A stretch of DNA of 64,000 bases. Origin: Runella rosea (GTDB taxonomy: Bacteria; Bacteroidota; Bacteroidia; Cytophagales; Spirosomataceae). Within the stretch, counting starts at the first letter, position 1. Each line of letters begins with the position of its first letter. Of the stretch, positions 14,234 through 43,306 are shown piece after piece. The translations under genes were made by a program, and so were the position numbers. Where the stretch lies: NCBI RefSeq assembly GCF_003325355.1, contig NZ_CP030850.1:4209501-4273500 (forward strand), in the 5' to 3' direction. The notes beneath the pieces were generated by a model that saw only the letters and a program-made list of their open reading frames with translations, was not told the DNA's origin and searched no databases.

Positions 14234-15448
14234 ATGCTTTACTACCTATTTTCTTATTTAGACAAAGAATTCAACTTCCCAGGTGCTGGAGTTTTCCAAT
14301 ATATTTCTTTCAGGGCCCTTGGTGCCACCATCACCTCCTTATTGATTGCGGCGATTTTTGGTGGGCGTATCATTAATTTTCTTCGCAACCAACAAATTGG
14401 GGAAACAATCCGCGATTTGGGCCTTCAAGGTCAGATGGAAAAAAAAGGGACTCCTACCATGGGCGGGTTTATTATCTTGGCTTCCTTGCTTATTCCTGCC
14501 TTATTGTTTGCCAAATTGTCCAACGTATACATTGTTCTCCTGCTAATTACGGCCGTTTGGACAGGCCTTATTGGTTTTTTGGACGATTACATAAAGAAGT
14601 TTAAAAACAATAAAGAAGGGCTACAGGGCAAATTTAAAGTTGTGGGTCAGGTAGGATTGGGGCTAATTGTCGGGATAACCTTGTCTTTCAATCAACATGT
14701 CAAAATCAGGCAATACGATAAGCCACTTATTAGTTCGGCTATTGGTGAAGTACAACGTTATACAGATGTTATCAATCCAACAATCACTACTTTGCCCTTT
14801 ATAAAAAACAACGAGTTTGATTATTCTTCATTATTATTCGGCTTATTACCAGATAGTTATACATGGATTATTTATACCATTGTAGCTGTTTTTATCATTA
14901 CAGCGGTATCAAACGGGGCAAATATTACGGATGGAATTGATGGTTTAGCAGCAGGAACATCCATCATTATTGCCCTAACACTTGGAGTTTTAGCCTACAT
15001 CTCTGGAAACGCCAAATTCTCGCAGTACCTCAATATTATGTACATTCCTAACTCTGGTGAGCTGGTTATATTTATTGCCGCTTTTGTGGGGGCTTGCGTG
15101 GGCTTTTTGTGGTATAATTCTTACCCTGCGCAGGTTTTTATGGGAGATACGGGAAGTTTGATGCTTGGTGGCGTTATTGCGGTTATATCGCTGGCTGTGC
15201 GCAAGGAATTATTGATTCCCATCATGTGTGGCATCTTTCTGGTTGAACTTGTTTCCGTTATTTTACAGGTCAGTTATTTTAAGTATACCAAGAAGAAATT
15301 CGGAGAAGGCAAGCGTATTTTTCTAATGTCACCTTTGCACCATCATTTCCAGAAGAAAGGCTATCATGAAGCCAAAATTGTGGCCCGTTTCTGGATTGTG
15401 GGTATTATTCTGGCGATTGCAACATTAGTCACCTTGAAATTAAGATAA
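14234..15448 (+). CDS. mraY: Phospho-N-acetylmuramoyl-pentapeptide transferase
   Basis: Integral membrane enzyme that transfers phospho-MurNAc-pentapeptide to undecaprenyl phosphate, forming lipid I. The 404-residue protein shows FLDDY (about 115), [17 protein letters not shown] (about 229), [12 protein letters not shown] and the [11 protein letters not shown] loop near 370, all MraY hallmarks, with about ten membrane segments. It is longer than the E. coli enzyme (360) because of an insertion around residues 155-200. It is encoded alone, about 18 kb from and opposite to the murD-ftsZ cluster where it is normally found. Confidence 0.96.
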
Positions 15449-16038: not shown

Positions 16039-17877
16039 TTAAAGCGTATCGCCACGCAGTTGTCTGAAACGCTTTCTTGCATCGGCAGCATAGATACTTG
16101 CTGGATATTTTTCAAGCATTCTCTGGTACAATTCCATTGATTTGTCTTTGTCCTTAAAGCGATTTTGGTACAATTCTGCCATCATAAAAAGTGCATCATC
16201 ACCCAAGATATCAGTCGAGAACTTATCCACAATTATCTGCAAGTTATCCACTGCTTTTTGATTTTCTCCCATTTTTGCGTAGGTCCGGGCTTTTAGCCAC
16301 AGAATCTCATCAGCAAGTGGGTGATCTTTGTACCTTACAAACATCCCGTCTAAGCGGTCTAGCGCTATCTGTGTTTGATTTTGATAAAGAAGCAAGTCGA
16401 TGGCTGCATATTCCTTCATCGCGTCTTCAGAGGTATCTAAACCCGTGTTATCCTGAATCAATAAGCTCAATGCTCCGGCATCGTTGGCAATTTCTCGGGT
16501 TGTGGCCATTTTCAGGATGTCCAACAAGGCTTTTGATAACTCAAAATCACCTGTATAATAAAATTGTCGGGCATTGCGCAGTTTGGCTTCATAGCCAAGC
16601 GGGGTTTCTTTTTGCGATTTTTCAACTTGTGAATACAACAGTGTTGATTCCCACGGTTCATTTTTTAAGAGAAAAATATCTCCCAAGTCGAGTTTGCACT
16701 TATCCACAAAATCGCTTTCTGCTCGGCCTATTTTTACGGCATTCTGTAAAATGACGGTTGCGCTGTCCTTTTCATTCAGATAAAAAGCGTACAAACTAGC
16801 CATACTCCGCATCGCTTCAAGCGTGCGATTGTTTTGGCCAAGTTCTCCCAACAACTTTTTATAATCTTCAATCAAGCGTCGCACCGACGTTATTTCCACG
16901 GGGAATGTATTTTTCACCTGCTCTTCTCGCGCCACAATCATCATACGCCGGGCATATGGGTAGAGTTGTCCTTGTGGGTAATCTTTTACGACATATTCAA
17001 AAGACTGAATAGCTGCTGGGAAATCTTTGTTTTGTAGCGCCAGATTTCCTAAATCAAAAACTTTCGTACCGTTATATTTAAACCGTCTATCCAACGCCCT
17101 TTCCTGAATGAACGCTTTACTGAACTGTTTCTTTTGGGTCAAAAACCAAATGAGCATTTCGGCAAAGAAGGGCTCGTTGGGCTGACGTTGGATTTTTTCG
17201 TACAGAATCTTTTCAAATTTTGCCTGGTCTTTTTCTTCCCGCAGAAAATCTTGAAAATAGTTTTGAATCACTTCCTTGCTTTGAATTGCTACGCCCAAGC
17301 TCAACAATTCTTCAATCATCTGCTCTGTTTTTCCAGTTTGAGCGTACAAGGCCGCCAATTCCATTTTAAATAAATTATCATTTTTTGCCACATCTCTAGC
17401 CTTCAATAAAGTGCCAATGGCCGCATCCGTATTATCTATCTCTCTAAACTCATCGGCTAATTCTTTAAAGGCATTCAAATCTTTTGCAGGAATTTGGGCA
17501 ATACTCTCTTGGTATTTTTGAGCGGCGGGCGCTGCTTGCCCCATTTGCTCCAACATTCGCCCCCAGTACAGTGTATAGAGGTAACCCACATTTTCATCAG
17601 ATTTCTGCTGACGTTTAAAGAATTTTTCAGCTTCGTCAAAACTCTTGAGTTTGATCATACAGCCCACATACCTCCTCAAATAGATTTTGTTAAAATCTTT
17701 TCGCAAGACTTTCTGATAGAGAGTCACTACTTTTTCACACTCACCCTTTTGAAAGTATGCATCTGCTAAGTCGGCATCACTTTGGGCGTGGCTTTCTGTA
17801 GACACCAAAAGTAAAATGACACCAATGAACAGTATCCACAAACGATACGGAGTTGTACACATTTTTCCTGCACCCAT
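16039..17877 (-). CDS. TPR-repeat protein, exported
   Basis: About 612 residues of tetratricopeptide helices after an N-terminal signal sequence (RLWILFIGVILLLVSTESHAQ). Repeats are visible from about residue 35 to the end, the last with the YPASIYAADARKR pattern seen in outer-membrane-associated TPR proteins. The frame is open to an ATG at 17925, but the start at 17877 (MGAGKMCTT) or 17862 places the signal sequence better. The coding sequence itself carries DnaA-box matches at 16223-16231 and 16700-16708. It borders the putative replication origin. Function unknown; a scaffold role is likely. Confidence 0.8.
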   Translation of the reverse strand: MGAGKMCTTPYRLWILFIGVILLLVSTESHAQSDADLADAYFQKGECEKVVTLYQKVLRKDFNKIYLRRYVGCMIKLKSFDEAEKFFKRQQKSDENVGYLYTLYWGRMLEQMGQAAPAAQKYQESIAQIPAKDLNAFKELADEFREIDNTDAAIGTLLKARDVAKNDNLFKMELAALYAQTGKTEQMIEELLSLGVAIQSKEVIQNYFQDFLREEKDQAKFEKILYEKIQRQPNEPFFAEMLIWFLTQKKQFSKAFIQERALDRRFKYNGTKVFDLGNLALQNKDFPAAIQSFEYVVKDYPQGQLYPYARRMMIVAREEQVKNTFPVEITSVRRLIEDYKKLLGELGQNNRTLEAMRSMASLYAFYLNEKDSATVILQNAVKIGRAESDFVDKCKLDLGDIFLLKNEPWESTLLYSQVEKSQKETPLGYEAKLRNARQFYYTGDFELSKALLDILKMATTREIANDAGALSLLIQDNTGLDTSEDAMKEYAAIDLLLYQNQTQIALDRLDGMFVRYKDHPLADEILWLKARTYAKMGENQKAVDNLQIIVDKFSTDILGDDALFMMAELYQNRFKDKDKSMELYQRMLEKYPASIYAADARKRFRQLRGDTL

Positions 17878-17933
17878 TTTAATAATAATATATTTAATTT
17901 TTAAACTATTATAATCCATTAGCACCGGGGATA

Positions 17934-18450
17934 AGTGGATAAGAAAGTTATCCCCGCGTTATCCACTTTTTATTAAAACGTAAATGTGTATAAGTAGTAG
18001 GTTTATCCACGTTGTTTTATTTTTATCCACAACTGAAATTACTGTTTTTCAGGCATATCTGCAACTATTCACAATTGGACGTGGATTGTGGATAATTTTG
18101 TTCACGTTGGGGATGATTATTTTTCCACATTTTAACATGTTTAAAACGGCTTGAAATGATGTGGGAAATCGGGGTACATTCCCACATTTGTATTGTTGAT
18201 AAATAGTTCTCCACATTATTCAAATGTTATCTACACGTTTTCCCACCACTTATCCACTTACCTATAAACATCTGTATCTGTTATCCACATACTTATTCAC
18301 ATCTTTTCCTCACAATTGTGTTTTTTGTGAAATAGGTGTTTCACAACCTAAAACTTACCTAGCTACTTTTTATACTATCTCAAAAAGTGAACCAAACTGC
18401 ATAATAGCTTATCCACAGAGTGTGAATGATGTGGATTATTTTGTGGATAA
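17934..18450. other. oriC: Candidate chromosomal replication origin (oriC), DnaA-box cluster
   Basis: About 500 bases of A+T-rich non-coding DNA packed with DnaA boxes. Exact TTATCCACA matches, either strand: 18023-18031, 18087-18095, 18281-18289, 18409-18417, 18442-18450. One-mismatch boxes: 17934-17942, 17959-17967, 17985-17993, 18003-18011, 18227-18235, 18250-18258, 18293-18301, 18430-18438. The last exact box lies inside the end of the Ig-like lipoprotein gene. mnmG (gidA), a frequent oriC neighbour, is 2 kb away. Sampled GC skew on the plus strand is negative to the left and positive to the right. dnaA is not in the window. Confidence 0.8.
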
Positions 18451-20061
18451 GTCTATATCTATACCACTCATCACAAAGTTTTTCTTCACTTTTACCGCTT
18501 CGGTGTGGAAAAACACGGGTTCTGCTAGTTTGTTGGCTTTTACATCGCCCGTATCCCATTGTCCGTTTCCATTTTCATCCACAATTATGCGCAGTGTGTA
18601 CGTAGCGGGTTTTAGATAGGAAAAAACATAAGGTGTTTTGTTACTGATTGATTTAACTACTTCAAACTTATCATCGAGCAGTTCAACGATAAATTTACTT
18701 TTAGCACCCTTTATTTCACCTTCCAATGTGCCGTAGTTTTCCTCATCCATGATGGGGAGCTTATAGATTTTAGCCGGGATTGTGTCGTTTTCTACGCTAA
18801 AGAAAGTGGCTTTGGGAATGACTACTTTGAGTTCACGACGTGCTAAAATAGGTCTCGAAAGTGAAAGAATGGCGTGATTATTGGCCCACGTAAAATCGGA
18901 AATTTTGATAACTTCGGCTTTTGTACTATCGCTAAATATCTGTATTTGATTAAGCCTTGCTTCGGCTACAGGTTTATTAAAGGTTAGTTTTAGGGCAAAA
19001 TTTCTAGGCTCTATTTCGCCATTATCGGGAAAATTTGTCTTCATATCAAAGGGCTCACGGTTGGTGTCGGCGGTCTTCCCTCCTCCCCTAGCTTCCCTGA
19101 ATTTTATCTTCTGGTTATGTTCAAAGGTCAATCCTACCGAGTCAACTATCGTTATTTTGGCCACAAGGGTATCCTTTCGATTTTTAGTGTTATAGAACTT
19201 CAGCTCGTTGGTTCCCGCTTGAAAGTGCGGAATTGAGTCTTCTGGATTGTTAAATTTTACTTTGTATTCGAGGAATCCTTTATCATAATTTATGGAGTAA
19301 TAATTGGCCCTAGGCTGCGTATTTCGCACTTTTGCGGGGGTATTATTGGCCATAAATAGCCTCAACGAAACGCCTGAGATTTGCGTAGAATCAACAATAG
19401 TGATGCTATCCCTTAAATACGCGATTTTTTCGGCCCTTGGATTATAGCTCAAAGAGCGGTTTTTATCGTCAAAAGCATATAGGCGATACTTGTTTGGACG
19501 AATATTTTCAATGCTGTATCGACCCGCGCTATCCGAACGCGTGAAGTAGCTTGGCTTCATTTTTTCAATATTGAGGGTGTCAGAATTTGGGTACAGGCCT
19601 ACCAAGACATCCAACAATGGCTTATCCGAGAGTAAATCTTTTACCTGCCCACCCACAGAGGCAGAGTCAATCCCTACACCAGTACTGAATACAACGCGAA
19701 GATTTCGGGCTGGATTTTTTTCGCTAAAATCTTTGATGGCGTCGCCAAAGGAAAGGGAATAAGTGGTGGCGCTGTCAAGCGATTTTTTAAATTTAATTTG
19801 CAGTCCCGTTGGCCGGGCCTTAAAATCATACTCCCCAGCATCTGGAGTAATCAGGAGTTTTTGCTGTAAATTTTCTGCAACTATGTACTCATCAAACTCT
19901 AGGTCAACGGTTCGTCCTTGATAATTTGTTTGCTTATTGTTAGGGATGCTTGATATAAGATTTGGTGGTACGGTGTCCCTCTTTCCTCCCGTAGGCGAAA
20001 TGGGCTGAGCGCAGGATGTAACCAAAATATACAGTATAATGTAGAATGAAAAATTTCTCAT
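18436..20061 (-). CDS. Ig-like domain lipoprotein
   Basis: A 541-residue lipoprotein. The frame opens at 20190, but MRNFSFYIILYILVTSC at 20061 gives a proper signal peptide with lipobox (VTSC), so this start is chosen. The motif SPTGGKRDTVPPNLISSIP after the anchor, followed by a bacterial Ig-like fold (Big_5 type, about 40-130, FDEYI, FGDAIKDFSEKN), is characteristic of a conserved Bacteroidota lipoprotein family. Further beta domains follow, one resembling a carboxypeptidase regulatory fold near 150-210. Role unknown, presumably at the cell surface. Its 3' end overlaps the DnaA-box cluster. Confidence 0.8.
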   Translation of the reverse strand: MRNFSFYIILYILVTSCAQPISPTGGKRDTVPPNLISSIPNNKQTNYQGRTVDLEFDEYIVAENLQQKLLITPDAGEYDFKARPTGLQIKFKKSLDSATTYSLSFGDAIKDFSEKNPARNLRVVFSTGVGIDSASVGGQVKDLLSDKPLLDVLVGLYPNSDTLNIEKMKPSYFTRSDSAGRYSIENIRPNKYRLYAFDDKNRSLSYNPRAEKIAYLRDSITIVDSTQISGVSLRLFMANNTPAKVRNTQPRANYYSINYDKGFLEYKVKFNNPEDSIPHFQAGTNELKFYNTKNRKDTLVAKITIVDSVGLTFEHNQKIKFREARGGGKTADTNREPFDMKTNFPDNGEIEPRNFALKLTFNKPVAEARLNQIQIFSDSTKAEVIKISDFTWANNHAILSLSRPILARRELKVVIPKATFFSVENDTIPAKIYKLPIMDEENYGTLEGEIKGAKSKFIVELLDDKFEVVKSISNKTPYVFSYLKPATYTLRIIVDENGNGQWDTGDVKANKLAEPVFFHTEAVKVKKNFVMSGIDIDLSTK

Positions 20062-20241
20062 TAGGTGATTGTGAGAATGAAAAACTGGTTTGTAAGTTAT
20101 CTTTATCATGCTTTTAGCAGACAGTTTTTTTATGTTATACAAGTGTGATTGTTTTGATACAACGAACAAATGGTTTGAAAGCCTTTGCAAATTAACATCT
20201 TTTAAATCCTCAAGTTGAATTTAGGGGTGTATTGCAAAAAT

Positions 20242-20297: not shown

Positions 20298-22160
20298 TTA
20301 TCTTCCCAAGTAAATCATCAATACAGATACATCAGATGGACTGACGCCACTTATTCTGGAAGCTTGCCCAAGTGTACCTGGACGGAGGCTTTTGAGTTTT
20401 TGACGCCCTTCAAATGACAGAGCGGATACGCGGTCGTAGTCGAAATTTGGGATGATTTCAAGGTCCTCTAATCTATTCATCTTTTCTACCATGAGGTATT
20501 CTTTCTCAATGTAGCTTTCGTATTTTACCGTAATCATTGCTTGCTCTAAAGCTTCTTCATCGAATTGATTCAGAAAACCTGCGAAGGAACCCTTTAGGTT
20601 CTTGATGTCATCTATTTCAATATCGGGTCGTTTTAGCAACTGATATAAAGGCTGTTTTTCCCGAATTGTTGCGGTGCCCAATTGAACAAGTTGTTCATTT
20701 ATTTCTTCAGGTTGAGCTTTGATGGTTTTGAGTTCTTTTAAAATTAACTCGGTATTAGCCACTTTTTCACGAACGCGTTGAAGTCGAGATTCAGCAGCGA
20801 GCCCGAGTTTGTAACCTTTTTCTGTAAGACGAATGTCTGCGTTATCTTGTCGTAAAAGAGTACGGTATTCTGCCCTTGACGTAAACATTCGGTAAGGTTC
20901 GTCTGTGCCTTTATTGACGAGGTCATCTACTAATACGCCAATGTAGGCTTCTGAACGCTTTAAAACGAAGGGCTCCAATTCGTGTGTGTTTTGATGAGCG
21001 TTAATACCCGCGATTAATCCCTGACATGCGGCTTCTTCATAACCCGTTGTCCCGTTGATTTGTCCTGCAAAAAATAGGTTCTTGATAAGGTGGGTTTCGA
21101 GGGTTAACTTTAACTGAGTAGGTGGGAAATAATCGTATTCTATGGCGTAGCCAGGACGAAACATTTTTGCGTTTTCAAACCCAGGTATTAGGCGTAGTGC
21201 CTTGTATTGAACATCTTCTGGAAGTGATGTAGAAAAACCGTTTACGTAAATTTCAACGGTGTTCCATCCTTCTGGCTCTACAAAAATCTGATGTCTGTCT
21301 TTGTCGGCAAATCGGTTGATTTTATCTTCAACCGAAGGACAGTAACGAGGCCCTAACCCTTTGATGCGTCCTGAAAACATCGGTGATTTATCAAACCCTG
21401 TGCGCAAAGCAGCATGAACTTCTTCGTTTGTGTACGTAATCCAACAGCTTCTTTGGTGTTCAAGCTTAGGGGTTGATGTGTACGAAAATTTAGCGGGATT
21501 CTCATCGCCAGGCTGTTCTTCCATACGTGTGTAATCCAGCGAACGCCCATCTATGCGCGGTGGTGTTCCTGTTTTCATTCGCCCCGATTCAAAGCCTAAT
21601 TCAATCAATTGCTCAGTTATTCCTGTTGCTGACTTCTCTCCTACTCTTCCTCCGCCAAAGTTTTTTTCTCCAATGTGTATTAATCCATTCAAAAAAGTAC
21701 CATTAGTCAAGACTACTGATTTGCTTTGTATTTCGATTCCGAGGCTTGTTTTTATTCCTGCCACCGCTCCATTTTTGACAATAAGCTCACGAACTGTGTC
21801 TTGCCAAAAATCCACATTGGGTGTTTGTTCAAGGGTTAAACGCCATTCTTCTGCAAAACGCATACGGTCGCTTTGGCATCTTGGCGACCACATGGCGGGT
21901 CCCTTTGAGCGGTTGAGCATTCTGAATTGAATCATTGTTTTGTCGCTGATAATTCCAGACTGTCCACCAAGTGCATCTATTTCTCTTACTATTTGTCCCT
22001 TAGCTACACCTCCCATTGCGGGGTTACAAGACATCTGTGCTATGGTGTGCATGTTCATCGTAACGAGCAAAACTTTGGACCCCATGTTTGCCGCTGCCGC
22101 TGCCGCTTCACATCCTGCATGGCCTGCCCCAACCACAATTACATCGTATTTTGGAAACAT
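20298..22160 (-). CDS. mnmG: tRNA uridine-5-carboxymethylaminomethyl modification enzyme MnmG (GidA)
   Basis: FAD-dependent enzyme that, with MnmE, installs the carboxymethylaminomethyl group on U34 of certain tRNAs. The 620-residue length is typical. The FAD site GAGHAG is at residues 11-16, followed by MSCNPAMGG and GTPPRIDGR, both strongly conserved, and the C-terminal helical domain ends with LRPGTLGQASRISGVSP. mnmE is not in the window. Its position next to the DnaA-box cluster reflects the classical gidA-oriC linkage. A terminator follows and parS-like sites lie just upstream. Confidence 0.97.
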   Translation of the reverse strand: MFPKYDVIVVGAGHAGCEAAAAAANMGSKVLLVTMNMHTIAQMSCNPAMGGVAKGQIVREIDALGGQSGIISDKTMIQFRMLNRSKGPAMWSPRCQSDRMRFAEEWRLTLEQTPNVDFWQDTVRELIVKNGAVAGIKTSLGIEIQSKSVVLTNGTFLNGLIHIGEKNFGGGRVGEKSATGITEQLIELGFESGRMKTGTPPRIDGRSLDYTRMEEQPGDENPAKFSYTSTPKLEHQRSCWITYTNEEVHAALRTGFDKSPMFSGRIKGLGPRYCPSVEDKINRFADKDRHQIFVEPEGWNTVEIYVNGFSTSLPEDVQYKALRLIPGFENAKMFRPGYAIEYDYFPPTQLKLTLETHLIKNLFFAGQINGTTGYEEAACQGLIAGINAHQNTHELEPFVLKRSEAYIGVLVDDLVNKGTDEPYRMFTSRAEYRTLLRQDNADIRLTEKGYKLGLAAESRLQRVREKVANTELILKELKTIKAQPEEINEQLVQLGTATIREKQPLYQLLKRPDIEIDDIKNLKGSFAGFLNQFDEEALEQAMITVKYESYIEKEYLMVEKMNRLEDLEIIPNFDYDRVSALSFEGRQKLKSLRPGTLGQASRISGVSPSDVSVLMIYLGR

Positions 22161-24821: not shown

Positions 24822-25523
24822 TCAAAGAGTTAAATAATACTTGCGTTTGGATTCTGGAAAACGCTCAATTGCGTAACGCAAAGCGGTACGTGGCATTTGT
24901 TTTACATGGGTATCCAAAAACTCTTCCAGCACTAAATCATCACGTTTACCCACTTCTCGAAGCATCCAGCCTACTGCCTTGTGAATAAGGTCATGGGTAT
25001 GCGTAAGAAGAATTTCTGCAATTCGAATCGTATCGGAAAATTGATTTCGTGAAATAAAATACCAGGTTGACACAATCGCGACGCGTTGGGCCCAAAGGTG
25101 GGACCGCTGAGCTAAATCGTATAAAATGCTCCTGTCTTTATTTAACAGATAAGCTCCAACAATATCACGACAAGTGACATCAACCAAATCCCAATTATTG
25201 ATGTAATCGAGGTTTGATAAATAGATTTCAAAAATAATATGTTGGGTGGTTTCGTCCTTTTTTGATTTTTGAAACCGTTTCATCAGCCCAATCAATGCAG
25301 CCATCCGAAATTCATGGTAAGGACTGTGAAGGAGTTCGGTCCATTCTTCGATTGTTAGGGTGGGATATTTTTTTACAATTTCTCTGATTTCGGGCATTGT
25401 AATACCCAGAAATACATCCCCTTCACCGTATTGGCCTTTTCCTGTTTTGAAAAAGCGACAAAGAAAGGCAGCCTTTTCGGGGCTGCCTAGTTGTTGTAAA
25501 TCTTTTTTTATTTGTGATAGCAT
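24822..25523 (-). CDS. DNA alkylation repair protein (AlkD-like HEAT repeat)
   Basis: A 233-residue all-helical protein of the DNA_alkylation family (AlkD/AlkC type), DNA glycosylases that excise positively charged alkylated bases. Typical segments are GDVFLGITMPEIREIVKKY near the N-terminus, YHEFRMAALIGL, NNWDLVDVTCRDI (the Trp-Asp region that in AlkD contacts the lesion) and HKAVGWMLREVGKRD. The frame is open well upstream through the end of ftsZ, but MLSQIKKDLQQLG at 25523 is the sensible start. It begins 7 bases after the ftsZ stop, so it is probably the last gene of the division operon. Confidence 0.87.
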   Translation of the reverse strand: MLSQIKKDLQQLGSPEKAAFLCRFFKTGKGQYGEGDVFLGITMPEIREIVKKYPTLTIEEWTELLHSPYHEFRMAALIGLMKRFQKSKKDETTQHIIFEIYLSNLDYINNWDLVDVTCRDIVGAYLLNKDRSILYDLAQRSHLWAQRVAIVSTWYFISRNQFSDTIRIAEILLTHTHDLIHKAVGWMLREVGKRDDLVLEEFLDTHVKQMPRTALRYAIERFPESKRKYYLTL

Positions 25524-25530
25524 CCTATTC

Positions 25531-27033
25531 TTAACGCTTATGCTTGTCCAATTTAATGGGAATAAAAGCTTCTTCAGGAATCGCGGGTTTTTGATGTAAA
25601 ACCACATTTTGACGCAAATAAGCAGGCCGTTCGAGTTCGCTTGCGGAATACTTGCCTTTAGTAATGTCTTGAACAAGTTGCCGCAAAATAGAAGGGTCTT
25701 CCTGTGGTTCTGGATTATCAATAAAAGGCTGTTTACTAACGACTTGATTTGTCTCTTGGTATTCAGGTTTGATTGGTTCTCGTACCACGGGCAAATCAAC
25801 CGTTTGTGTAACAGTTGGTTTTACCTCAACCTTAATTTCTTGTTTAGGTGGTGAGGGCGGATTAAAGGCCGTTGTTGGGGTGGAAGCCTCCAATTTCCCT
25901 TCTTGGGGGCGGTCTATTACAACTCCAGGAACGGGTGGTTTGGGAGACTCAACAACTGTTGGTGTATCTTTTTTTATGGATTTAAAACCAGTAGAATCGT
26001 AGTTGAAAGGCAAATGTGAATCTTCAAAGCCTGCGGCTATGACCGTAACAAGGAGTTGTTCTTTGAGGGTGTCATCAAAAATAACCCCCACTTTACACAT
26101 ATCAGCTTCATCACCAATGAGGCTTTCTATGTAATTTGTGATGGCCATTTGCTCGTCAAGGGTAGCCATGTATTCTTCATCCGTACTTGAAGCAAGGGTG
26201 ATAAGAATTTTTTGAGCGCCCCGAATATCTCGGTTGTTGAGCAAAGGAGAGTTTAAAGCCGCTTCAATCGCCAACTCAGCCCGGTTTTCACCAGAGGCCG
26301 AAGCAGAACTCATTACCGAAGTACCTGCATTTTCAAGCACTTTTTTCACGTCCATGAAGTCGGAGTTTACACTCCCATGAACCGTGATAATCTCAGCAAT
26401 ACTTTTTACGGCATTGGATAAAATATTATCAGCGTGTTCATAAGCCCGTAAAATGGGTAATTTTCCGTATAACTTAGCTAATTCATCATTCAGAATGACC
26501 AAAACTGTGTCACAGTGCTCTTTCAGGGCATTAATTCCTTCAAGTGCTTGGTTTTTCTTACTGCGCCCTTCGTGGCTATAAGGAGCCGTGACAACTGCCA
26601 CGGTAAGCATACCCATTTCTTTGGCTACCTGCGCAATAACAGGGGCTGCTCCTGTACCAGTACCACCGCCCATCCCTGCGGTAATAAATACCATCTGAGT
26701 GGGTGGTTGCATCAGTTGTCGGATGTATTCAATGCTTTCTTCGGCCGCTTTTCGTCCTGTAGCTGAATCAGTTCCCGCTCCGAGTCCCTTAAGCAAATCA
26801 GCGCCCAATTGAATTTTATTTTCAATGGTGCTGCGCATAAGAGCCTGTTTATCGGTATTGCATACCACAAAGCCCACATCCTTAATACCCTTCACATGCA
26901 TGTGGTTGACGGCGTTGCTACCTCCCCCACCTACCCCAATTACTTTGATAATCGGTGCGTCTTCTGAATATTTTGAATTTTCCATGACGTACTCGTAGCC
27001 GTGGTCAAAAACGTTTTTTCTTGCAAAAACCAT
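25531..27033 (-). CDS. ftsZ: Cell division protein FtsZ
   Basis: Tubulin-like GTPase that polymerises into the division ring. The 500-residue protein has IKVIGVGGGGSNAVNHM near 28-44, the tubulin signature GGGTGTGAAP near 120-130, and synergy loop residues. The conserved core ends near 340. A Pro-rich variable linker follows, then a conserved-looking tail (ERPAYLRQNVV) and an extra basic end (KLDKHKR). ATG 27033 has an A/T-rich leader; ATG 26985 (MENSKYSED) is an alternative. It follows ftsA by 49 bases and precedes the AlkD-like gene by 7. Confidence 0.97.
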   Translation of the reverse strand: MVFARKNVFDHGYEYVMENSKYSEDAPIIKVIGVGGGGSNAVNHMHVKGIKDVGFVVCNTDKQALMRSTIENKIQLGADLLKGLGAGTDSATGRKAAEESIEYIRQLMQPPTQMVFITAGMGGGTGTGAAPVIAQVAKEMGMLTVAVVTAPYSHEGRSKKNQALEGINALKEHCDTVLVILNDELAKLYGKLPILRAYEHADNILSNAVKSIAEIITVHGSVNSDFMDVKKVLENAGTSVMSSASASGENRAELAIEAALNSPLLNNRDIRGAQKILITLASSTDEEYMATLDEQMAITNYIESLIGDEADMCKVGVIFDDTLKEQLLVTVIAAGFEDSHLPFNYDSTGFKSIKKDTPTVVESPKPPVPGVVIDRPQEGKLEASTPTTAFNPPSPPKQEIKVEVKPTVTQTVDLPVVREPIKPEYQETNQVVSKQPFIDNPEPQEDPSILRQLVQDITKGKYSASELERPAYLRQNVVLHQKPAIPEEAFIPIKLDKHKR

Positions 27034-27082
27034 AATTTTTTAATGAGAAACAATTGGTGAGGTCGAATTTAAATTTTTGGTG

Positions 27083-28438
27083 TTAGTAAGAATCTTTCCC
27101 CGCCATATCATCTTGCATTAGACCTTTCCATATAAATGTGCCTACATCCTTGATTTTCAGGTCTTTAATTCCAAAGCTACCCCAAAGCCCTCCTGTTTTC
27201 TTTTTTTCTTGTTCTTTTTCTGTCTTACTTCTTTTTATTACTCTTTTATCTAACGGTTTGATGCTCGACCAAGCCAATCCAAGGGCGGTGGCAAAAGCAG
27301 GATCATTCATTAGGGAATCATGTAAGGGTCCGTTGATTCGCTCTAAATTCTGAGGTTTCCCAATTTGGACGTACATTCCCGTTACATCCCTGAAAATAGA
27401 ATCAATACCGTTGATTTTTGCGGTACCGCCAGTCAATACAACGCCTGCTCTCAACTTGTGTTCGTAGCCAGCTTTTTTTACTTCAGCAAACACCAAAGCA
27501 GCGATTTCACGAAGACGAGCCCGGGCAATAAGCACAATGTTTCGCGCTACAATCTCAATGGGCGGAATACCGTCGGCAGTTGGAACCACTAAGAGGGTAT
27601 TCAGGCTACAGGCGTTGGGGTTTGTTTCGCTCAACGTTGTTTTTGCTTCTTCGGCACTTTCCTGCGTTAGATGGCAACCTTCCCGAATATCATTCGTGAT
27701 GTGGTTTCCGCCAAAAGGAAGAACAACCGTGTGGCGCAATAAACCTTCGTGATAAATGGCAATATCTGTCGTACCACCGCCAATATCAACCAACACTACC
27801 CCTAAATTTTTATGGTCTTCTGTCAGAACAGCCAGACCAGATGCAAGGGGCGATGCCGCAAACCCGTCTTCATTGTCAACTTGAATGTTGGCTTTCTGAA
27901 GGGAGTCCTTGATTTGATACAGCGCCGTTTTTTTGGCAGTAATAATCTTAAAGTCGCCGCTGAGTTTCAGACCGATATGACCTACTGGGTCGTCGATTTC
28001 GTGTTGTTCTCCAACGGCAAATTTAAGCGGTAAGAGGTGGATAATTTGGTTGGAATCAGAGTCGTAGGTTTGCTGCATATCCTCAAATAGCACCGCTACA
28101 TCTTCCCCTTTGACTGATGCCGATTTGCAGGTTACTGAGCCTGTTTCCGACATTGTTTCCAAATGTGTCCCGCTTACGTTGACCGTGGCCGTCAAGGGAT
28201 AATTAAGTAAATCAGGCCTTTCTGCCTTTCTCGCCGCTATTTCCAACGCTTGCCTGATTGCCTCTTTTGTCTTCACGGGGTTGTTGATAATCCCCCTATA
28301 GACCCCTTCATTACGTGCCGAACCTAGCCCTACTACTTCGAGCATGGTATGGTTGTTGTGGGTCTTTGGCTTCGCCAAAATCGCAGCAACTTTGGTACTG
28401 CCGATGTCAATTCCTAAAAAAATAACATTATCTGACAT
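27083..28438 (-). CDS. ftsA: Cell division protein FtsA
   Basis: Actin-like ATPase that tethers FtsZ to the membrane. The 451-residue protein starts with FLGIDIGSTKVAAI (phosphate 1 loop), has VVLVDIGGGTTDIAIY (phosphate 2) and VVLTGGTAKINGI (adenosine motif), plus the FtsA-specific 1C subdomain (TVNVSGTHLETM region). The C-terminus ends in an amphipathic-looking segment (VGTFIWKGLMQDD), consistent with membrane targeting. It is 14 bases after ftsQ and 49 before ftsZ. Confidence 0.96.
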   Translation of the reverse strand: MSDNVIFLGIDIGSTKVAAILAKPKTHNNHTMLEVVGLGSARNEGVYRGIINNPVKTKEAIRQALEIAARKAERPDLLNYPLTATVNVSGTHLETMSETGSVTCKSASVKGEDVAVLFEDMQQTYDSDSNQIIHLLPLKFAVGEQHEIDDPVGHIGLKLSGDFKIITAKKTALYQIKDSLQKANIQVDNEDGFAASPLASGLAVLTEDHKNLGVVLVDIGGGTTDIAIYHEGLLRHTVVLPFGGNHITNDIREGCHLTQESAEEAKTTLSETNPNACSLNTLLVVPTADGIPPIEIVARNIVLIARARLREIAALVFAEVKKAGYEHKLRAGVVLTGGTAKINGIDSIFRDVTGMYVQIGKPQNLERINGPLHDSLMNDPAFATALGLAWSSIKPLDKRVIKRSKTEKEQEKKKTGGLWGSFGIKDLKIKDVGTFIWKGLMQDDMAGKDSY

Positions 28439-28452
28439 ACTGAGTTAGGGTT

Positions 28453-29214
28453 TTACTCACACACAATTTGATTTCGAAACTTAACACTAACGCGCTTATA
28501 TTTTTCCCATCCTTTCAGGGGTAAAATATTTTTATAAAATATTTTTAACTTCTCAAATTTTACCTCAAAATCATCGGGTAAGCCAAAATCAATTTGGTGT
28601 TGACCTACCTGAGGCATAAGGGTTAATTCACTGTCATTTGACACAATTACTTCGGCTACTTGGGCTTTCCAAAATGGATTTTGCTGAAGGGCTTTCAAAA
28701 AGTCAATCAGTTGCTTTCCCTTTTGGGAAGTTAAATTTTGTTTTTTAGCAAAAAACTCACCCGATACTAACACAGTTCTTGCAGCAAAACGTCCTGATAA
28801 TGGAACGATTTCGCCCGTCTCGGTTAGGTATCCGCCCTGTGAGGCATTTAGTTGTTGCTCGGTGTCTGATGTTGAAATAAGACGCCCGACGGGTCGTTGC
28901 TGCACTATAGATACGACCAAATTTCCAGATAAATCTCGAAACACCTGACAATTATTTATCAAGCGGTTCTTCATAACCCTTTTTTCTAAACCTTTTAGGT
29001 TTATTTCTGAAAAATTCATCCCTTCAATGACATCAACCCCTTTGAGCGTAATCAAATCTTTAATGTCCTGTTCATTAAAAAATGGATACTCTGCTTTTTC
29101 GTCTAATTTCACAATAATTCCCTTGCAGCGCTTACTTTTTTGTTGAAACTCAACAAAAAAAACAATCAGCCCAATAATAAATACCCCAAGAACAACCCAA
29201 ATCAAGCGTTTCAT
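28453..29214 (-). CDS. ftsQ: Cell division protein FtsQ/DivIB
   Basis: A 253-residue bitopic protein with one N-terminal membrane segment (residues about 5-23), a POTRA-like domain (KGIIVKLDEKAEYPFFNEQDI onward, with the LEKRVMKN and VSIVQQRPVGRL elements) and a periplasmic beta domain. FtsQ links the early and late divisome proteins. Sequence conservation is low as usual for the family; position between murC and ftsA supports the assignment strongly. Confidence 0.9.
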   Translation of the reverse strand: MKRLIWVVLGVFIIGLIVFFVEFQQKSKRCKGIIVKLDEKAEYPFFNEQDIKDLITLKGVDVIEGMNFSEINLKGLEKRVMKNRLINNCQVFRDLSGNLVVSIVQQRPVGRLISTSDTEQQLNASQGGYLTETGEIVPLSGRFAARTVLVSGEFFAKKQNLTSQKGKQLIDFLKALQQNPFWKAQVAEVIVSNDSELTLMPQVGQHQIDFGLPDDFEVKFEKLKIFYKNILPLKGWEKYKRVSVKFRNQIVCE

Positions 29215-29271
29215 ACAAGTGTCGATTTAGTAGTTTTTAATTTTAAATTACTAAAAATCAGTTTTTTAAAA

Positions 29272-30660
29272 TTAATCGGATGTTCCTTCTAAAACTTTTT
29301 TTATGGATTCAATGTAAGAATCAATATCGCCAGCACCAATCGTAGCCACTACGTCTAAAGGACGATTTTTTAGGACGTCTATTAGACTTGACTTCAAACA
29401 TTGAATTTTGTCACTTGTTATTTTATCAAAAATTAAATCAGAACTTACCCCTTCAATCGGTAATTCCCGGGCTGGATAAATATCCAAAAGAATCACATTG
29501 TCGGCTAGGGATAAACTTTCTGCAAATTCGACCGCAAAATCACGCGTACGGCTGTATAAGTGCGGTTGAAAAATTGCCGTTACCTGCCGATTGGGATAAA
29601 GGGCTTTCAAAGAGGATAAAAATGCATACACCTCGGCGGGGTGATGTGCGTAGTCATCTATCAGTACGTGCTGGTCTGTTTTTAGATAATATTCAAAACG
29701 CCTTTTTACACCGCCAAAGGTTTCGATGGCGGCACGGATTTGCTCACCTGACAGGCCGAGGGCGAGTCCAACTGCCGAGGCCGCCACGGCATTTTCTACG
29801 TTGTGAAAACCGGGTACTTGTAGAATAATATCGTTGATTACTCCTTGTGGGTGGACTAAGTCAAATACAAAACAGGCATTTTCGATTCGAATATTTTGGG
29901 TGTGATAGGCACCTTCATTTAGACTGTATTCTTCGACTTTTGCCTTCGTTTTATTGGCCAATGTCAACCCTTTTTTCATGAACAGGCGGCCGTTGGGTTT
30001 GATTTGACTTACATAGGCTGAAAAGGATTCCAGAACAGAATCGTGGCTTCCGTAAATATCTAAGTGATCAGCATCGGTGGAGGTCACAATGGCGATATCT
30101 GGAAACAAAGTCAAAAAAGAACGGTCAAACTCATCTGCTTCTACTACACAAGGTACTTGGCTAAGCTGCGCGGTAGGCGCGTTGAGCAGCATATTGGTAC
30201 CATAATTTTGCGTTATTCCCCCTAAAAATGCCGCACAGTTTACCCCTGAATGACGAAGTAAATGCGCAGTCATCGAGGAGGTTGTGGTTTTGCCGTGTGT
30301 TCCTGCTACCCCAATCGTAAACATTCCGCCAGCTATCAGGCCCAGTACCTGCGATCGTTTCTGTAGGGTGAATCCATTGTCTTTCAGGTAGTTGTATTCT
30401 GAATGGTTTTTTGGAATAGCGGGCGTATAAACAACAAGTGTTTGGTCAGGATTTTGTAAAAAAGCAGCAGGTATTAAATCCACTGAATCTTCAAAATGTA
30501 CAGAAATACCCTCTGCATGGAGTGTGTCGGTCAAGGGCGTTTGTGTACGGTCGTAGCCAGCCACCTCAAATCCATTCACGCCGAACCAACGCGCCAAGGC
30601 ACTCATTCCAATACCTCCAATACCGAGGAAATAAATGTATTTATAGTCTGTAATTTGCAT
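29272..30660 (-). CDS. murC: UDP-N-acetylmuramate--L-alanine ligase
   Basis: ATP-dependent ligase adding L-Ala to UDP-MurNAc. The 462-residue protein begins with the Rossmann motif GIGGIGMSALARWF, has the P-loop GTHGKTTTSS (about 115), EADEFDRSF, the UDP-sugar region and DYAHHPAEV near 325, all diagnostic of MurC. It sits between murG and ftsQ in the conserved order. Confidence 0.97.
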   Translation of the reverse strand: MQITDYKYIYFLGIGGIGMSALARWFGVNGFEVAGYDRTQTPLTDTLHAEGISVHFEDSVDLIPAAFLQNPDQTLVVYTPAIPKNHSEYNYLKDNGFTLQKRSQVLGLIAGGMFTIGVAGTHGKTTTSSMTAHLLRHSGVNCAAFLGGITQNYGTNMLLNAPTAQLSQVPCVVEADEFDRSFLTLFPDIAIVTSTDADHLDIYGSHDSVLESFSAYVSQIKPNGRLFMKKGLTLANKTKAKVEEYSLNEGAYHTQNIRIENACFVFDLVHPQGVINDIILQVPGFHNVENAVAASAVGLALGLSGEQIRAAIETFGGVKRRFEYYLKTDQHVLIDDYAHHPAEVYAFLSSLKALYPNRQVTAIFQPHLYSRTRDFAVEFAESLSLADNVILLDIYPARELPIEGVSSDLIFDKITSDKIQCLKSSLIDVLKNRPLDVVATIGAGDIDSYIESIKKVLEGTSD

Positions 30661-30706
30661 CCTTTTTTTAATTCTTATTTGGAATAAACGACCAACTAGT
30701 TACGTG

Positions 30707-31801
30707 TTAAATAAGTCCTAATACCGTTTCCGCAATTTCTTTCGCGGCGTTGGGCTTGCCCAGTTTTTTGATGTTTTGACTCAAAGTCTGTTGTTTTTCA
30801 ACGTCTTGCAATAATCTCAGTGCCGTCTGGACAAGTTCTTCGGGGGCATCTTTATCTTTAATTAAAAGGGCAGCATTTTGCTCTACCAAACTCATCGCAT
30901 TTTTGGTCTGGTGATCTTCGGAAGCGTACGGGAAAGGAACCAAAATAGCAGGCTTTGCCACCAAGCACAGCTCTGATACGGACAAAGCGCCTGCTCTTGA
31001 AACCACAACATCGGCCAACGCGTAGGCTAAATCCATTTCATAAATAAAATCAAAGGACTTAGCATAAGGTGTTTTGAGTGAATTTATTGCATTTGCGGCC
31101 TTTTCAGCATAGGGTTTGCCTGTTTGCCAAAGAATCTGGTATCCTGAATTAATCAGTAATTTCAATCCCGCTTCAATACTTTCATTGATTGTCTTGGCGC
31201 CTAGACTTCCCCCAATCACAAGGAGCGTTTTGTGGTTGGGTTGCAACCCAAAATGGGCGTAAGCTTGTGTGCGCTTGTGGGTTACCTCCAAAATGTCGCT
31301 TCTAACGGGGTTTCCCGTCATTTTGAGCTTATTTTTTGGAAAAAACGAATCCATGTTTGGATAAGCTACACAAATGGCTTTAGCGCGTTTTGCGAGCATT
31401 TTGTTGGTAATGCCGGCATACGAGTTCTGTTCTTGAATTAAGGTTGGGATTCCCAACAATGACGCCACCATCAACAGTGGTCCACTGGCAAATCCTCCTA
31501 CACCAATGGCTACATCTGGTTTAAAACTTTTAATAATACTACGCGCTTTTAACAAACTGCGCGTGAGTTTGAGTGGAAATGATAAATTATCAACTGAAAG
31601 CTCTCGTTTGATTCCTGCAATCGGCAAACCAATGATTTCGTAGCCTGCTTTGGGGACTTTTTCCATTTCCATTTTCCCCAAAGCCCCCACAAACAAAATT
31701 TGAATGGTAGGATCAATGGCTTTGAGTGCATTGGCAATAGCAATGGCTGGGTAGATGTGTCCACCAGTGCCGCCGCCGCTAATGATTACTTTCTTTATCA
31801 T
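30707..31801 (-). CDS. murG: UDP-N-acetylglucosamine--MurNAc-(pentapeptide)-PP-undecaprenol GlcNAc transferase
   Basis: Membrane-associated GT28 glycosyltransferase that converts lipid I to lipid II. The 364-residue protein has GGGTGGHIYPAIA (9-21), GVGGFASGP, LIQEQNSYAGITNKML, the GGSLGAKTIN motif starting the second domain, and SRAGALSVSEL with PFPYASEDHQTKNA for UDP-GlcNAc binding. It follows ftsW by 68 bases. Confidence 0.97.
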   Translation of the reverse strand: MIKKVIISGGGTGGHIYPAIAIANALKAIDPTIQILFVGALGKMEMEKVPKAGYEIIGLPIAGIKRELSVDNLSFPLKLTRSLLKARSIIKSFKPDVAIGVGGFASGPLLMVASLLGIPTLIQEQNSYAGITNKMLAKRAKAICVAYPNMDSFFPKNKLKMTGNPVRSDILEVTHKRTQAYAHFGLQPNHKTLLVIGGSLGAKTINESIEAGLKLLINSGYQILWQTGKPYAEKAANAINSLKTPYAKSFDFIYEMDLAYALADVVVSRAGALSVSELCLVAKPAILVPFPYASEDHQTKNAMSLVEQNAALLIKDKDAPEELVQTALRLLQDVEKQQTLSQNIKKLGKPNAAKEIAETVLGLI

Positions 31802-31869
31802 ACGTTTTTATGACCAGAAGGATGAAAATTTGATAAATTTGGGGACATCCCGTTATCACTTCTCAAGCC

Positions 31870-33045
31870 TTATAAATTTGTTTCTTCAATATCACCTCTG
31901 CTAACACTGAGTACAATTCCGAGTGAGATACAGGTAAATAAAACGGAGGTTCCTCCCATGCTTAATAAAGGCAAAGGTTGGCCAGTGACGGGAAAAATCC
32001 CTACGGCTACGGCCATGTTTGTAAATGCTTGTAAGCCAATGCTTAACATAAGTCCTGCGGAGAGTAGTCCGCCAAATGCTCGATTGGTTTCATTGATGTT
32101 TTGGACTCCTCGCACCAACAAAATAGCATATAAAATCATGATAATAATTCCTCCGATAATGCCGTATTCTTCAATAATTATGGCATATATAAAATCCGAA
32201 TAGGCTTGGGTAAGGTAATTTCGTTGGTGACTTTTGCCGAGTCCTTGTCCAAGCGTTCCGCCGTTGGCGATGGCAATAAAACCTTGCTTAGCCTGATACT
32301 CATCTCGTTTAAGAAATCGCTCAATACGTCCTTGGGCGGTGTCAAGGCGTTGGCCAACCACAAGGCCCGTCGCCCCTGCAATGCCAATAGAAACGACCAT
32401 TACTGCTAAATATTTGCCTGGCACACGGCCAATGTATAGCATTAAAAAGCACGAGAATCCCAACAAAACGGCGGTAGAGGTACTGGTAAGGGCAATGAAA
32501 AAACAGATAATTCCGACCCATAAAATCATTTTCCCAAAAATCTGCCAGTCATATTGTACCCGCTGACGTTTGGCAAGCATTGCTGCCAGATTGGCAATCA
32601 GCGCCAAACGAGCAAAGTCGGCGGGTTGGAAGGTTAAGCCAGTGCCCGGAATCGCTAACCAACGAGTGGCTCCGTTGATTGTAACCCCCGCAACTTTTAC
32701 CAGAATCAACAAAGGAATAGAGATCAGGAGAGCGGCCCGCGATAAACGCGAGAAATAGGTGTAGTTGATACGATGAACGGCCCACATAACCAATAAGCCG
32801 ATTCCCGTAAAAAAAGCGTGTTTAAACAGAAAAGATTCTGGGTAACCACCGCCCCGCTGATAGGCCAGCGTTCCTGTTGCGCTATATACAATAAGCATAC
32901 TTGTAAAAGACAGCAGAGCCACAATAATCCAAATGACAATATCACCTTTCAGATTTTGACGGAGCCATTCTTTAGCGTTTTGCCAACCGCCAAATAGGGA
33001 GCGGCCAGTTGGTTCAGGTTGGGGCGCATTCATCTCGTTATTCAT
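31870..33045 (-). CDS. ftsW: Probable lipid II polymerase/division protein FtsW
   Basis: A 391-residue SEDS-family membrane protein, about ten helices. Diagnostic segments are GATRWLAIPGTGLTFQPAD and ARLALIANLAAML in the middle, DFIYAIIIEEYGIIGG, and PVTGQPLPLLSMGGTS near the C-terminus. SEDS proteins polymerise glycan strands with a class B PBP. The frame is open to 33159, inside murD; MNNEMNAPQPEP at 33045 is chosen, overlapping the murD end by 8 bases and implying translational coupling. Location in the division cluster favours FtsW over RodA. Confidence 0.93.
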   Translation of the reverse strand: MNNEMNAPQPEPTGRSLFGGWQNAKEWLRQNLKGDIVIWIIVALLSFTSMLIVYSATGTLAYQRGGGYPESFLFKHAFFTGIGLLVMWAVHRINYTYFSRLSRAALLISIPLLILVKVAGVTINGATRWLAIPGTGLTFQPADFARLALIANLAAMLAKRQRVQYDWQIFGKMILWVGIICFFIALTSTSTAVLLGFSCFLMLYIGRVPGKYLAVMVVSIGIAGATGLVVGQRLDTAQGRIERFLKRDEYQAKQGFIAIANGGTLGQGLGKSHQRNYLTQAYSDFIYAIIIEEYGIIGGIIIMILYAILLVRGVQNINETNRAFGGLLSAGLMLSIGLQAFTNMAVAVGIFPVTGQPLPLLSMGGTSVLFTCISLGIVLSVSRGDIEETNL

Positions 33046-34414
33046 CGTTTTTTTGGGAATTAAGTGCAAAATCCAGAACAGCCGCTTTGAATAAATCGCC
33101 ACGGTCTTCGTAATTTTTGAACAAATCGAAACTGGCGCAAGCGGGCGACAACAAAGCAATGTCGTCAGGATGACCTAACGAAACAGCATGAGCTACAGCT
33201 TTACTTACGTCCTGTGTCTCGATGATTACAGGAACGATAGGGGTAAAAAACGAGAGAAGTTTGCTATTATCTTTGCCCAGACAGATAAGGGCTTTTACTT
33301 TCTGGCGAACTAAGTCTTCGATTTGGGTATAATCGTTGCCTTTATCCACTCCGCCAGCAATCCAAATAATTGGGGTATTAAAACTGTTAAGTGCGTAATA
33401 AACCGAGTCTACATTGGTGGCTTTTGAATCATTGATGAACTTGATGCCATTGATTTCTGCCACGGGCTCAAGCCGATGAGCCGCGTTTTGAAATGTCAAT
33501 AAACCTTGCCGAATTTGCTCATCACTTACCCCAGCCGCCATAGCCGCCAACGTTGCCGCCATGGCATTGATGGCATTATGTGGACCCTTGATCGGTAATT
33601 TATCCGCACTTATCTCAAAAGTACGGGGATGGCGCGTCAGTTGCAATTTTCCTTCATGAAAAAAACCGCCATTGCTATCCTTTTTTACGAAAGAAATAGG
33701 TAAGTGATTCACCATGAACGGTTTTTTATCTAATTCGGAAGCGATGGCTTCATTATCTACAAAATAGATAAAATCGTCGCCGGGTTGCATATTTTGAAGT
33801 AATCGAAACTTAGAATCGACGTATTTCTGAAAAGTATACTCGTACCGATCCAAGTGGTCAGGGGTAATGTTTAATAATATACCAATGTCAGCTTTGAATT
33901 GGTACATATTATCCAATTGAAAGCTGCTTAACTCTAGTACAAACCAATCAAATCTATCTTCAATTACCTGTTTAGCAAAGCTTTCGCCGATATTGCCCGC
34001 CAAACCTACATTAAAGCCTGCAGATTTGAGTAAATGATACGTGAGTAAGGTTGTGGTTGTTTTTCCATTACTGCCCGTTATCGCGATTTTTCTTGCTTTT
34101 GTGTACCGCGCAGCGAATTCTATTTCTGAAATAACGGGTGTTCCCTGAGCATATAGCTTTTTGACCAACGGAGCCGTATCGGGAATTCCCGGGCTTTTAA
34201 TGACCTCATCGGCAGCCAAGATTCGTTCCTCGGTGTGTTTCCCTTCTTCAAAGTCAATGCCATGAACATTCAGGACATTACGAAATTCATCAGATAAAGT
34301 GCCTTTATCTGATAAAAATACATTAAATCCTTTGGCTTGGGCGAGCAATGCTGCACCTACACCACTTTCACCTCCGCCTAAAACAACGGTTTTAAAGGTA
34401 TTTCGGGAAATCAT
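33038..34414 (-). CDS. murD: UDP-N-acetylmuramoyl-L-alanine--D-glutamate ligase
   Basis: Adds D-Glu to UDP-MurNAc-L-Ala. The 458-residue protein has the N-terminal Rossmann motif VLGGGESGVGAALLA, the P-loop GSNGKTTTTLLTYHLL (about 112), LELSSFQLDNM, NITPDHLDRY and NDSKATNVDS, all MurD-specific. It is the first gene of the cluster here; murE, ftsI and mraY, which usually precede it, are absent from the upstream DNA. Confidence 0.97.
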   Translation of the reverse strand: MISRNTFKTVVLGGGESGVGAALLAQAKGFNVFLSDKGTLSDEFRNVLNVHGIDFEEGKHTEERILAADEVIKSPGIPDTAPLVKKLYAQGTPVISEIEFAARYTKARKIAITGSNGKTTTTLLTYHLLKSAGFNVGLAGNIGESFAKQVIEDRFDWFVLELSSFQLDNMYQFKADIGILLNITPDHLDRYEYTFQKYVDSKFRLLQNMQPGDDFIYFVDNEAIASELDKKPFMVNHLPISFVKKDSNGGFFHEGKLQLTRHPRTFEISADKLPIKGPHNAINAMAATLAAMAAGVSDEQIRQGLLTFQNAAHRLEPVAEINGIKFINDSKATNVDSVYYALNSFNTPIIWIAGGVDKGNDYTQIEDLVRQKVKALICLGKDNSKLLSFFTPIVPVIIETQDVSKAVAHAVSLGHPDDIALLSPACASFDLFKNYEDRGDLFKAAVLDFALNSQKNDE

Positions 34415-41290: not shown

Positions 41291-41302
41291 CTCTGTGGAT
41301 AA
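41071..41302. other. Secondary DnaA-box cluster
   Basis: Three exact TGTGGATAA sequences at 41071-41079, 41282-41290 and 41294-41302. The first is in the dihydroorotase-like gene, the second contains its stop codon, the third is in the 15-base gap before the DUF4199 gene. The last two are spaced 12 bases start to start in the same orientation. Confidence 0.5.
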
Positions 41303-42941: not shown

Positions 42942-43292
42942 GATGGCTGATGAAAAAGTGCATACAAAGGCACTGTCTTCTAATTAAATGTTTTTTACTT
43001 CTTCAAATACTGATACTTCCATACTTCGGATAAGCCAATCCACTTCTTTGCTAATTAAAAATGCCTCACTATTTTTTTGCGCGCTACTTCAGAGGCAAAT
43101 TCATCAATTGCTATTTGGCATACAATAAATAGATTTAATAAGCCTATTTAAGAATAATTTATCGATTGTAAATCGGCCCAAAATTGTCCGTCACCTCTAT
43201 TTTTTCAGCGCTTAATTTTTAGAAGAGGCCTTCGTGGTAAATTAAAATATGTAAATATTTATAATTATTATTCATTGGTTTCTATGTGTAGG

Positions 43293-43306
43293 TGTCCACT
43301 TGGACA
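43293..43306. promoter_or_regulatory. Operator-like palindrome
   Basis: TGTCCACTTGGACA is a perfect inverted repeat with 6-base arms and a 2-base centre. It covers the TTG at the -33 position of the promoter below, a typical position for a repressor site. The regulator is not encoded next to it. Confidence 0.45.

Follow-up and report, generated by a model that had tools for sequence, protein, structure and literature searches.

In Escherichia coli, the chromosomal replication origin (oriC) lies next to gidA (mnmG). Within the Bacteroidetes, oriC is commonly located far from dnaA (PMC4755523). For Bacillus subtilis, a basal unwinding system (BUS) composed of tandem DnaA boxes, a short spacer and A-centred triplets beside A+T-rich DNA has been described (PMC8287927). 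A partial literature search yielded no published origin for Runella or the Cytophagales; a predicted DoriC entry may exist. The locus considered here belongs to a Runella genome of 7.16 Mb in 7 contigs, and the window, i.e. the whole 64-kb stretch of DNA that was analysed, corresponds to C1:4209501-4273500 of the chromosome C1 (6,810,953 bases). A preliminary description of this stretch had proposed a candidate chromosomal origin within it. That proposal is upheld by one dominant cluster of DnaA boxes, the least stable DNA of the window adjoining it, a place and register conserved among relatives and a strand-composition switch on the opposite side of the chromosome at 0.70-0.85 Mb. Judged from these sequence properties, positions 17872-18450 very probably represent the oriC of Runella, which places the probable origin within about 600 bp.

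The DnaA-box array

The DnaA-box array of the predicted oriC extends from 17934 to 18450 and comprises 16 boxes in 517 bp. Exact copies of TTATCCACA are found at 18023 (+), 18087 (-), 18281 (+), 18409 (+) and 18442 (-), and boxes with one mismatch at 17934 (-), 17959 (+), 17985 (-), 18003 (+), 18121 (+), 18194 (-), 18207 (+), 18227 (+), 18250 (+), 18293 (+) and 18430 (-). Thirteen boxes had been described initially: the cluster itself is real and all five exact boxes were recovered, but the one-mismatch boxes amount to 11 rather than eight. The region is indeed A+T-rich, with a G+C content of 0.333 compared to 0.426 for the window, and the two further exact boxes mentioned for the adjacent TPR protein gene are present at 16223-16231 and 16700-16708. 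In 2000 simulations using a first-order Markov model based on the dinucleotides of 17934-18450 itself, boxes with at most one mismatch occurred 0.3 times on average and three times at most. Hence, a mere chance build-up of A+T-rich words resembling TTATCCACA is vanishingly improbable, all the more since the boxes are conserved in register among relatives, and the dense box cluster expected of a bacterial oriC is present far above simulation.

Box scores were determined for the window and 60 other sampled stretches (1.264 Mb in total), while the other ~5.5 Mb of the chromosome were searched for exact boxes only. The best 600-bp score, 27, belongs to the cluster at 17934-18450, each of the 60 other stretches reaches 5 or less, and the next-best clusters all lie inside the window, scoring 9 (41 kb), 8 (inside the TPR gene) and 7 (close to the start of the window). 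Exact TTATCCACA boxes occur 97 times in the whole genome as opposed to 53 occurrences of the reversed control word, an excess also seen in 7 of 12 relatives, and the cluster is the largest group formed by any of these 97 within 500 bp. Around it, 13 exact boxes fall within 45 kb, an interval picked post hoc, compared to 0.6 expected for even spacing.

Clusters of this type do not necessarily mark an origin. B. subtilis has oriC-proximal DnaA-box clusters, and datA and similar sites are known in E. coli. A DnaA-titrating or regulatory function of this kind, with the origin elsewhere on the chromosome, is nevertheless very unlikely for the Runella cluster: nowhere else are exact boxes grouped in a comparable way, the 60 other sampled stretches stay far below its score, it is adjoined by the least stable DNA of the window, and the sign of the skew changes both in this chromosomal region and roughly opposite to it.

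A candidate unwinding element and DnaA-trio module

Between the start of the TPR gene and the first DnaA boxes lies an A+T-rich stretch at 17872-17922, which is a candidate DNA-unwinding element. By nearest-neighbour energy, no other 50 bp of the 64-kb window are less stable (rank 1 of 63,950), so that the helically unstable, A+T-rich neighbour of the boxes that characterizes an oriC is present as a sequence property. An A+T-rich stretch is found at the corresponding place in the aligned Runella genomes, and in nine of ten loci of other genera the 50 bp of lowest G+C content are likewise located on the TPR side of the array (L165 being the exception).

A candidate basal unwinding module is located on the minus strand at 17904-17942. 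It consists of box TTATCCACT (17934) and the weaker box TTATCCCCG (17926, two mismatches), followed by a 10-bp spacer and four A-centred triplets resembling DnaA-trios, which run into the A+T-rich stretch. The BUS rule as tested, drawn from PMC8287927, allowed boxes with up to two mismatches and spacers of 0-16 bases and required at least three A-centred triplets. Under this rule, three trios occur beside a box in 46% of simulations and four trios in 20%, and the plus strand of the same region offers eight other four-trio fits, one of them at the exact box preceding the 26-bp element described below. DnaA-trios are present here but do not discriminate, and the module is weak evidence.

Conserved elements other than DnaA boxes

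The intergenic region is nearly constant in length, as 558-563 bp separate the corresponding gene ends in nine relatives, and many of the boxes stand in register across ten aligned Runella genomes. In addition, a 26-bp element at 18026-18051 (+) is invariant in all ten of them. It is made up of the last six bases of the exact box at 18023 and of ACTGAAATTACTGTTTTTCA, which is not a DnaA box. Its 20-bp part found only matches with 4-7 mismatches, i.e. at background level, in 24 loci of other genera. A possible diverged form with 6 mismatches was seen in Telluribacter, judged by eye from its position.

A second element is the palindrome TTGTGAAA-N6-TTTCACAA at 18325-18346, which has conserved arms and a variable centre. 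Its core arms TGTGAAA/TTTCACA are intact in nine of the ten aligned Runella genomes, with one change in G050, while the outermost A varies. No second exact copy exists in the genome, where two places match with one mismatch, and the palindrome is absent from all 24 loci of other genera searched. From its sequence, it may be regarded as a candidate binding site of a regulator. The invariant element and the genome-unique palindrome can serve as specific starting points in the search for other proteins that bind the origin in this group. At gathering score, the window has no Rfam match. A search for canonical parS with up to two mismatches, using the 16-mer consensus, gave a single palindromic site with two mismatches at C1:1845076 and fewer matches than the reversed control; with no canonical site, parS was dropped as corroboration of the origin.

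Flanking genes and the position of dnaA

On its left, the array is bordered by the TPR protein gene (16039-17925, minus strand), the true start of which is probably near 17877 as judged by eye. On its right follows a minus-strand gene for an Ig-like (Big_5) protein of 584 amino acids (18436-20190), whose 3' end overlaps the last DnaA box and whose product has no NCBIfam match at E 0.001. Beyond it lies mnmG (20298-22160, minus strand), identified by TIGR00136 with 829 bits, above the cut-off. The region had been described as adjoining mnmG/gidA, which is correct as regards the identity of the gene but not its direct adjacency, since the Big_5 gene intervenes. The same succession of TPR gene, cluster, Ig-like gene and mnmG is kept in G095, G063, G108 and G048. 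A Big_5 protein flanks the origin in other genera, too, with 39-43% identity in G108 and G048.

The Ig-like gene and mnmG open a block of 14 minus-strand genes at 18.4-38.3 kb among the retained open reading frames, with one more, overlapping minus-strand frame at 24822-25799. The block continues with ybeY, a radical SAM gene, a carboxyl transferase gene, ftsZ, ftsA, a gene in the position of ftsQ, murC, murG, ftsW (below cut-off), a MurD-like ligase gene and two more. The division and cell-wall (dcw) gene cluster is split, with mraY on the plus strand to the left of the origin (14234-15448) and ftsZ to the MurD-like ligase gene on the minus strand to its right (25531-34414). The gene mraY is found on the other side of the origin in this genome (G000) and in G095, and is absent within ~110 kb in G063. 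Division genes adjoin mnmG in the three Runella genomes tested but not in G108 and G048, where dcw is absent within ~110 kb; the division-gene block has likely moved next to mnmG in Runella.

The absence of dnaA from the neighbourhood, remarked on earlier, was borne out. The genome's single DnaA match is located at C1:6197819-6199201, 1.97 Mb from the cluster, and dnaA therefore does not lie beside the boxes as in a dnaA-linked oriC. The encoded protein matches the solved DnaA chain 1j1v with an E value of 2.6e-20; 1j1v is the complex of E. coli DnaA domain IV with a DnaA box.

Conservation among relatives

The closest named match of MnmG is that of Runella aurantiaca (98% identity), and genomes marked as belonging to the same genus are called Runella here on this basis. 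From 117 genomes with an mnmG match among 121 searched, 20 relatives were picked, nine of the same genus and 11 others with few contigs. In 18 of these 20, the top box window within the 20-kb surroundings of mnmG is located 1.3-3.0 kb downstream of this gene; G021 and G073 have no cluster there, and that of G034 is weak. Named genomes were represented by the best 80 of 587 confirmed loci, presumably mostly Cytophagales as judged from their names, of which 76 have at least 3.5 kb downstream of mnmG. Among these 76 usable loci of the best 80, the top window is found 0.9-4.0 kb downstream of mnmG in 71, although 28 of them score only 4-9, and elsewhere in five (L161, L185, L187, L224 and L229). 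A score of at least 10 is reached by 43 of the best 80, all of them downstream of mnmG within 6 kb. The conserved position expected of an oriC is thus seen in both sets. A simple rule emerges that applied to most related loci studied: the probable origin lies 2-3 kb downstream of mnmG and, in the five genomes checked for neighbours, between the TPR and Ig-like genes.

A further regularity concerns the draft genomes themselves: in 17 of the 23 loci L158-L180 (Telluribacter, Dyadobacter, Larkinella and others) the contig ends 8.2-8.6 kb downstream of mnmG. Such fixed ends suggest that a repeated sequence, possibly an rRNA operon, follows at a set distance beyond oriC.

Strand skew and terminus

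On the scale of the whole chromosome, the strand composition agrees with an origin in this region. Among 40 samples of 20 kb, those between 0.85 and 4.1 Mb have a negative skew and those from 4.59 Mb around the circle to 0.70 Mb a positive one; the four samples at 1, 2,380,001, 4,420,001 and 6,780,001 depart from this, being close to zero or of opposite sign. In the stretch C1:4129501-4149500 (L058), 10,000 bases read N. Therefore, the genome-wide minimum is in or near the window, and the other switch lies at 0.70-0.85 Mb. The latter interval includes 822 kb, the position opposite the cluster, as expected of a terminus opposite the origin.

Locally, the situation is more complex. The preliminary description had inferred from hand counts that the sign of the skew changes around 18 kb independently of gene direction, and had proposed to check whether the cumulative minimum falls at 17.9-18.5 kb. 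Over the contiguous 464 kb, however, the cumulative raw GC-skew minimum was found at window position 38,662, ~20 kb from the cluster and thus from the predicted origin, beside the head-on gene block. It is situated there because raw skew is weakly negative on average across 18-38 kb. Coding strands of this genome carry a G excess of about +0.06 to +0.10 at codon positions 1 and 2 (large gene classes), by which raw skew is pulled down in the block at 18.4-38.3 kb. The distance between the raw minimum and the mnmG 3' end amounts to 13-23 kb in all five genomes measured, always on the right side, away from the cluster. Raw GC skew was accordingly dropped as origin locator after codon-position analysis. 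An inversion carrying the origin was rejected as cause of the shifted minimum, as by reasoning it would keep the switch at the origin and as G108 and G048 have no dcw genes within ~110 kb.

Third codon positions give a different picture. The top-strand skew of the TPR gene (16039-17925) is -0.15 and that of the Ig-like gene (18436-20190) +0.16, turning across the cluster. Without correction, negative values are seen in all 14 listed genes left of the cluster and positive values in every block gene but one (13 of 14), the exception being 28453-29214. Part of this contrast is gene-strand bias; after its subtraction, nine of the 14 block genes remain positive and eight of nine listed genes on the left negative. 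The proposed change of sign at ~18 kb thus stands for third positions but not for raw skew, and its independence from gene direction persists in weaker form. In a regression on gene strand and replichore, the change point falls -3.0 to -1.0 kb from the mnmG 3' end, with the cluster at -2.1 kb. Gene bootstraps of the window's genome put it within 3 kb of the cluster in 59% of cases and at least 15 kb to the right in 21%; for fourfold sites the figures are 69% and 9%.

Relatives agree in part. For G063, the best change point is at -3.0 kb with a range to +7.5 kb, whereas in G095, G108 and G048 it lies at +9, +19 and +16.5 kb relative to the mnmG 3' end, i.e. 11, 22 and 19 kb to the right of the respective cluster, which fits worse than the best position by 5.6, 7.6 and 4.6 log-likelihood units. 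A secondary cluster fits better than the main one in G095 and G108 (3.5 and 4.6 units below the best fit), and neither of the two coincides with the best fit. With fourfold sites, the estimate for G048 jumps to -26 kb. A corrected skew switch at the cluster is hence found in only two of five genomes (G000 and G063), and the hand-count argument, unsound as originally written, holds only there and only after coding-strand correction. Skew alone places the origin no better than ~20 kb; boxes, weak DNA and conservation settle the site.

The satellite boxes at 41 kb

A pair of exact DnaA boxes 12 bp apart (41282-41302, minus strand) is situated where an amidohydrolase gene, probably pyrC, stops and a DUF4199 gene starts. 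Together with a third exact box at 41071-41079, three exact boxes lie within 232 bp (41071-41302). The pair occurs once per genome in 11 of 13 Runella genomes, including that of the window, and is missing in G111 and G122. The gene context was found in five of these eleven, namely in G000, G095 and G063 and, beside DUF4199, in G031 and G050. Outside Runella, DUF4199 matches on the same contig lie far from mnmG in the genomes compared by eye (G004, G026 and G048, out of 61 genomes). G108 carries four exact boxes in 110 bp (C1:2010135-2010244). They are intergenic, ~29 kb away from the mnmG 3' end, and their surroundings do not resemble those of the Runella satellite.

Both the raw minimum and the satellite could be taken to mean that replication starts at ~38.7 kb or at 41.07-41.30 kb and that the 18-kb cluster is a regulatory DnaA-binding region. 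The raw minimum at 38,662, the recurrence of the satellite pair in Runella, the change points of G095, G108 and G048, which are shifted rightward from the main cluster, the better fit of secondary clusters in two of these, and weak DNA at 43124-43424 (ranks 2, 4 and 7 in the window), ~2 kb from the satellite, are all in keeping with this possibility. Opposed to them is the third-position skew of the intervening block, which has the sign of the right replichore in most genes even after correction. Moreover, the satellite is worse than the best change point by 8.0 log-likelihood units in the window's genome, as is the equivalent site in G063 by 22.7 units. It sits at the end of a reading frame with three boxes as compared to 16. 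Nothing corresponds to it in G048, and its counterpart in G108 differs and is otherwise surrounded, while the main cluster is conserved in both. An origin at 38-41 kb is thus quite unlikely, and the satellite was rejected as origin of the window's genome on the change-point fit and the comparison of the relatives' surroundings, even though in G095 these boxes fit better than the main cluster. A skew minimum elsewhere accompanied by a stronger box cluster, which would have spoken against the 18-kb site, was not encountered, as the cluster nearest to the minimum is far weaker. From its sequence, the satellite may act either as a promoter under DnaA control or as an accessory site of small size.

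Proposed initiation at the 18-kb site

With the origin at 17872-18450, DnaA supplied from the distant dnaA gene would bind the 16-box array and oligomerise towards the A+T-rich stretch, which would melt first, probably from the tandem boxes at 17926-17942; binding of the array and melting of 17872-17922 are expected because of established knowledge on oriC. Helicases would then be loaded for two forks, the rightward of which would at once meet the mnmG-ftsZ-murD block head-on. As suggested by the codon-position skew, this head-on encounter is the likely reason for the displacement of the raw GC-skew minimum by 20 kb. A two-part control might further be imagined, in which the 18-kb oriC and the 41.3-kb satellite flank this block and DnaA at either end, along with another protein on the palindrome and the 26-bp element, couples initiation to the copy number or expression of the division genes; at present, such an arrangement appears unlikely.

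Comparison with known origins

Compared to origins of the type predicted by Ori-Finder and DoriC, the Runella site shares the box cluster, the A+T-rich weak DNA at one end, the mostly intergenic location and the proximity to a strand-composition switch. It differs in lacking an adjacent dnaA and in the 20-kb distance to the raw GC-skew minimum. Searches that score the distance to the skew minimum would count this offset against the site (PMC10225481). With the predicted oriC of Prevotella intermedia, it has in common the affiliation to the Bacteroidetes, multiple DnaA boxes, a skew transition and a location far from dnaA; P. intermedia belongs to a different lineage (PMC4755523). The BUS of B. 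subtilis (PMC8287927) finds a possible parallel in the tandem boxes, short spacer and A-centred triplets by A+T-rich DNA, even though one in five simulations yields such a fit by chance and the region contains further ones. Relative to the gidA-linked oriC of E. coli type, finally, mnmG is a near neighbour in both, whereas in Runella the Ig-like gene intervenes, the other neighbour is the TPR gene and oriC lies downstream of mnmG. By its sequence, the site is a typical oriC, and only details of the lineage look new.
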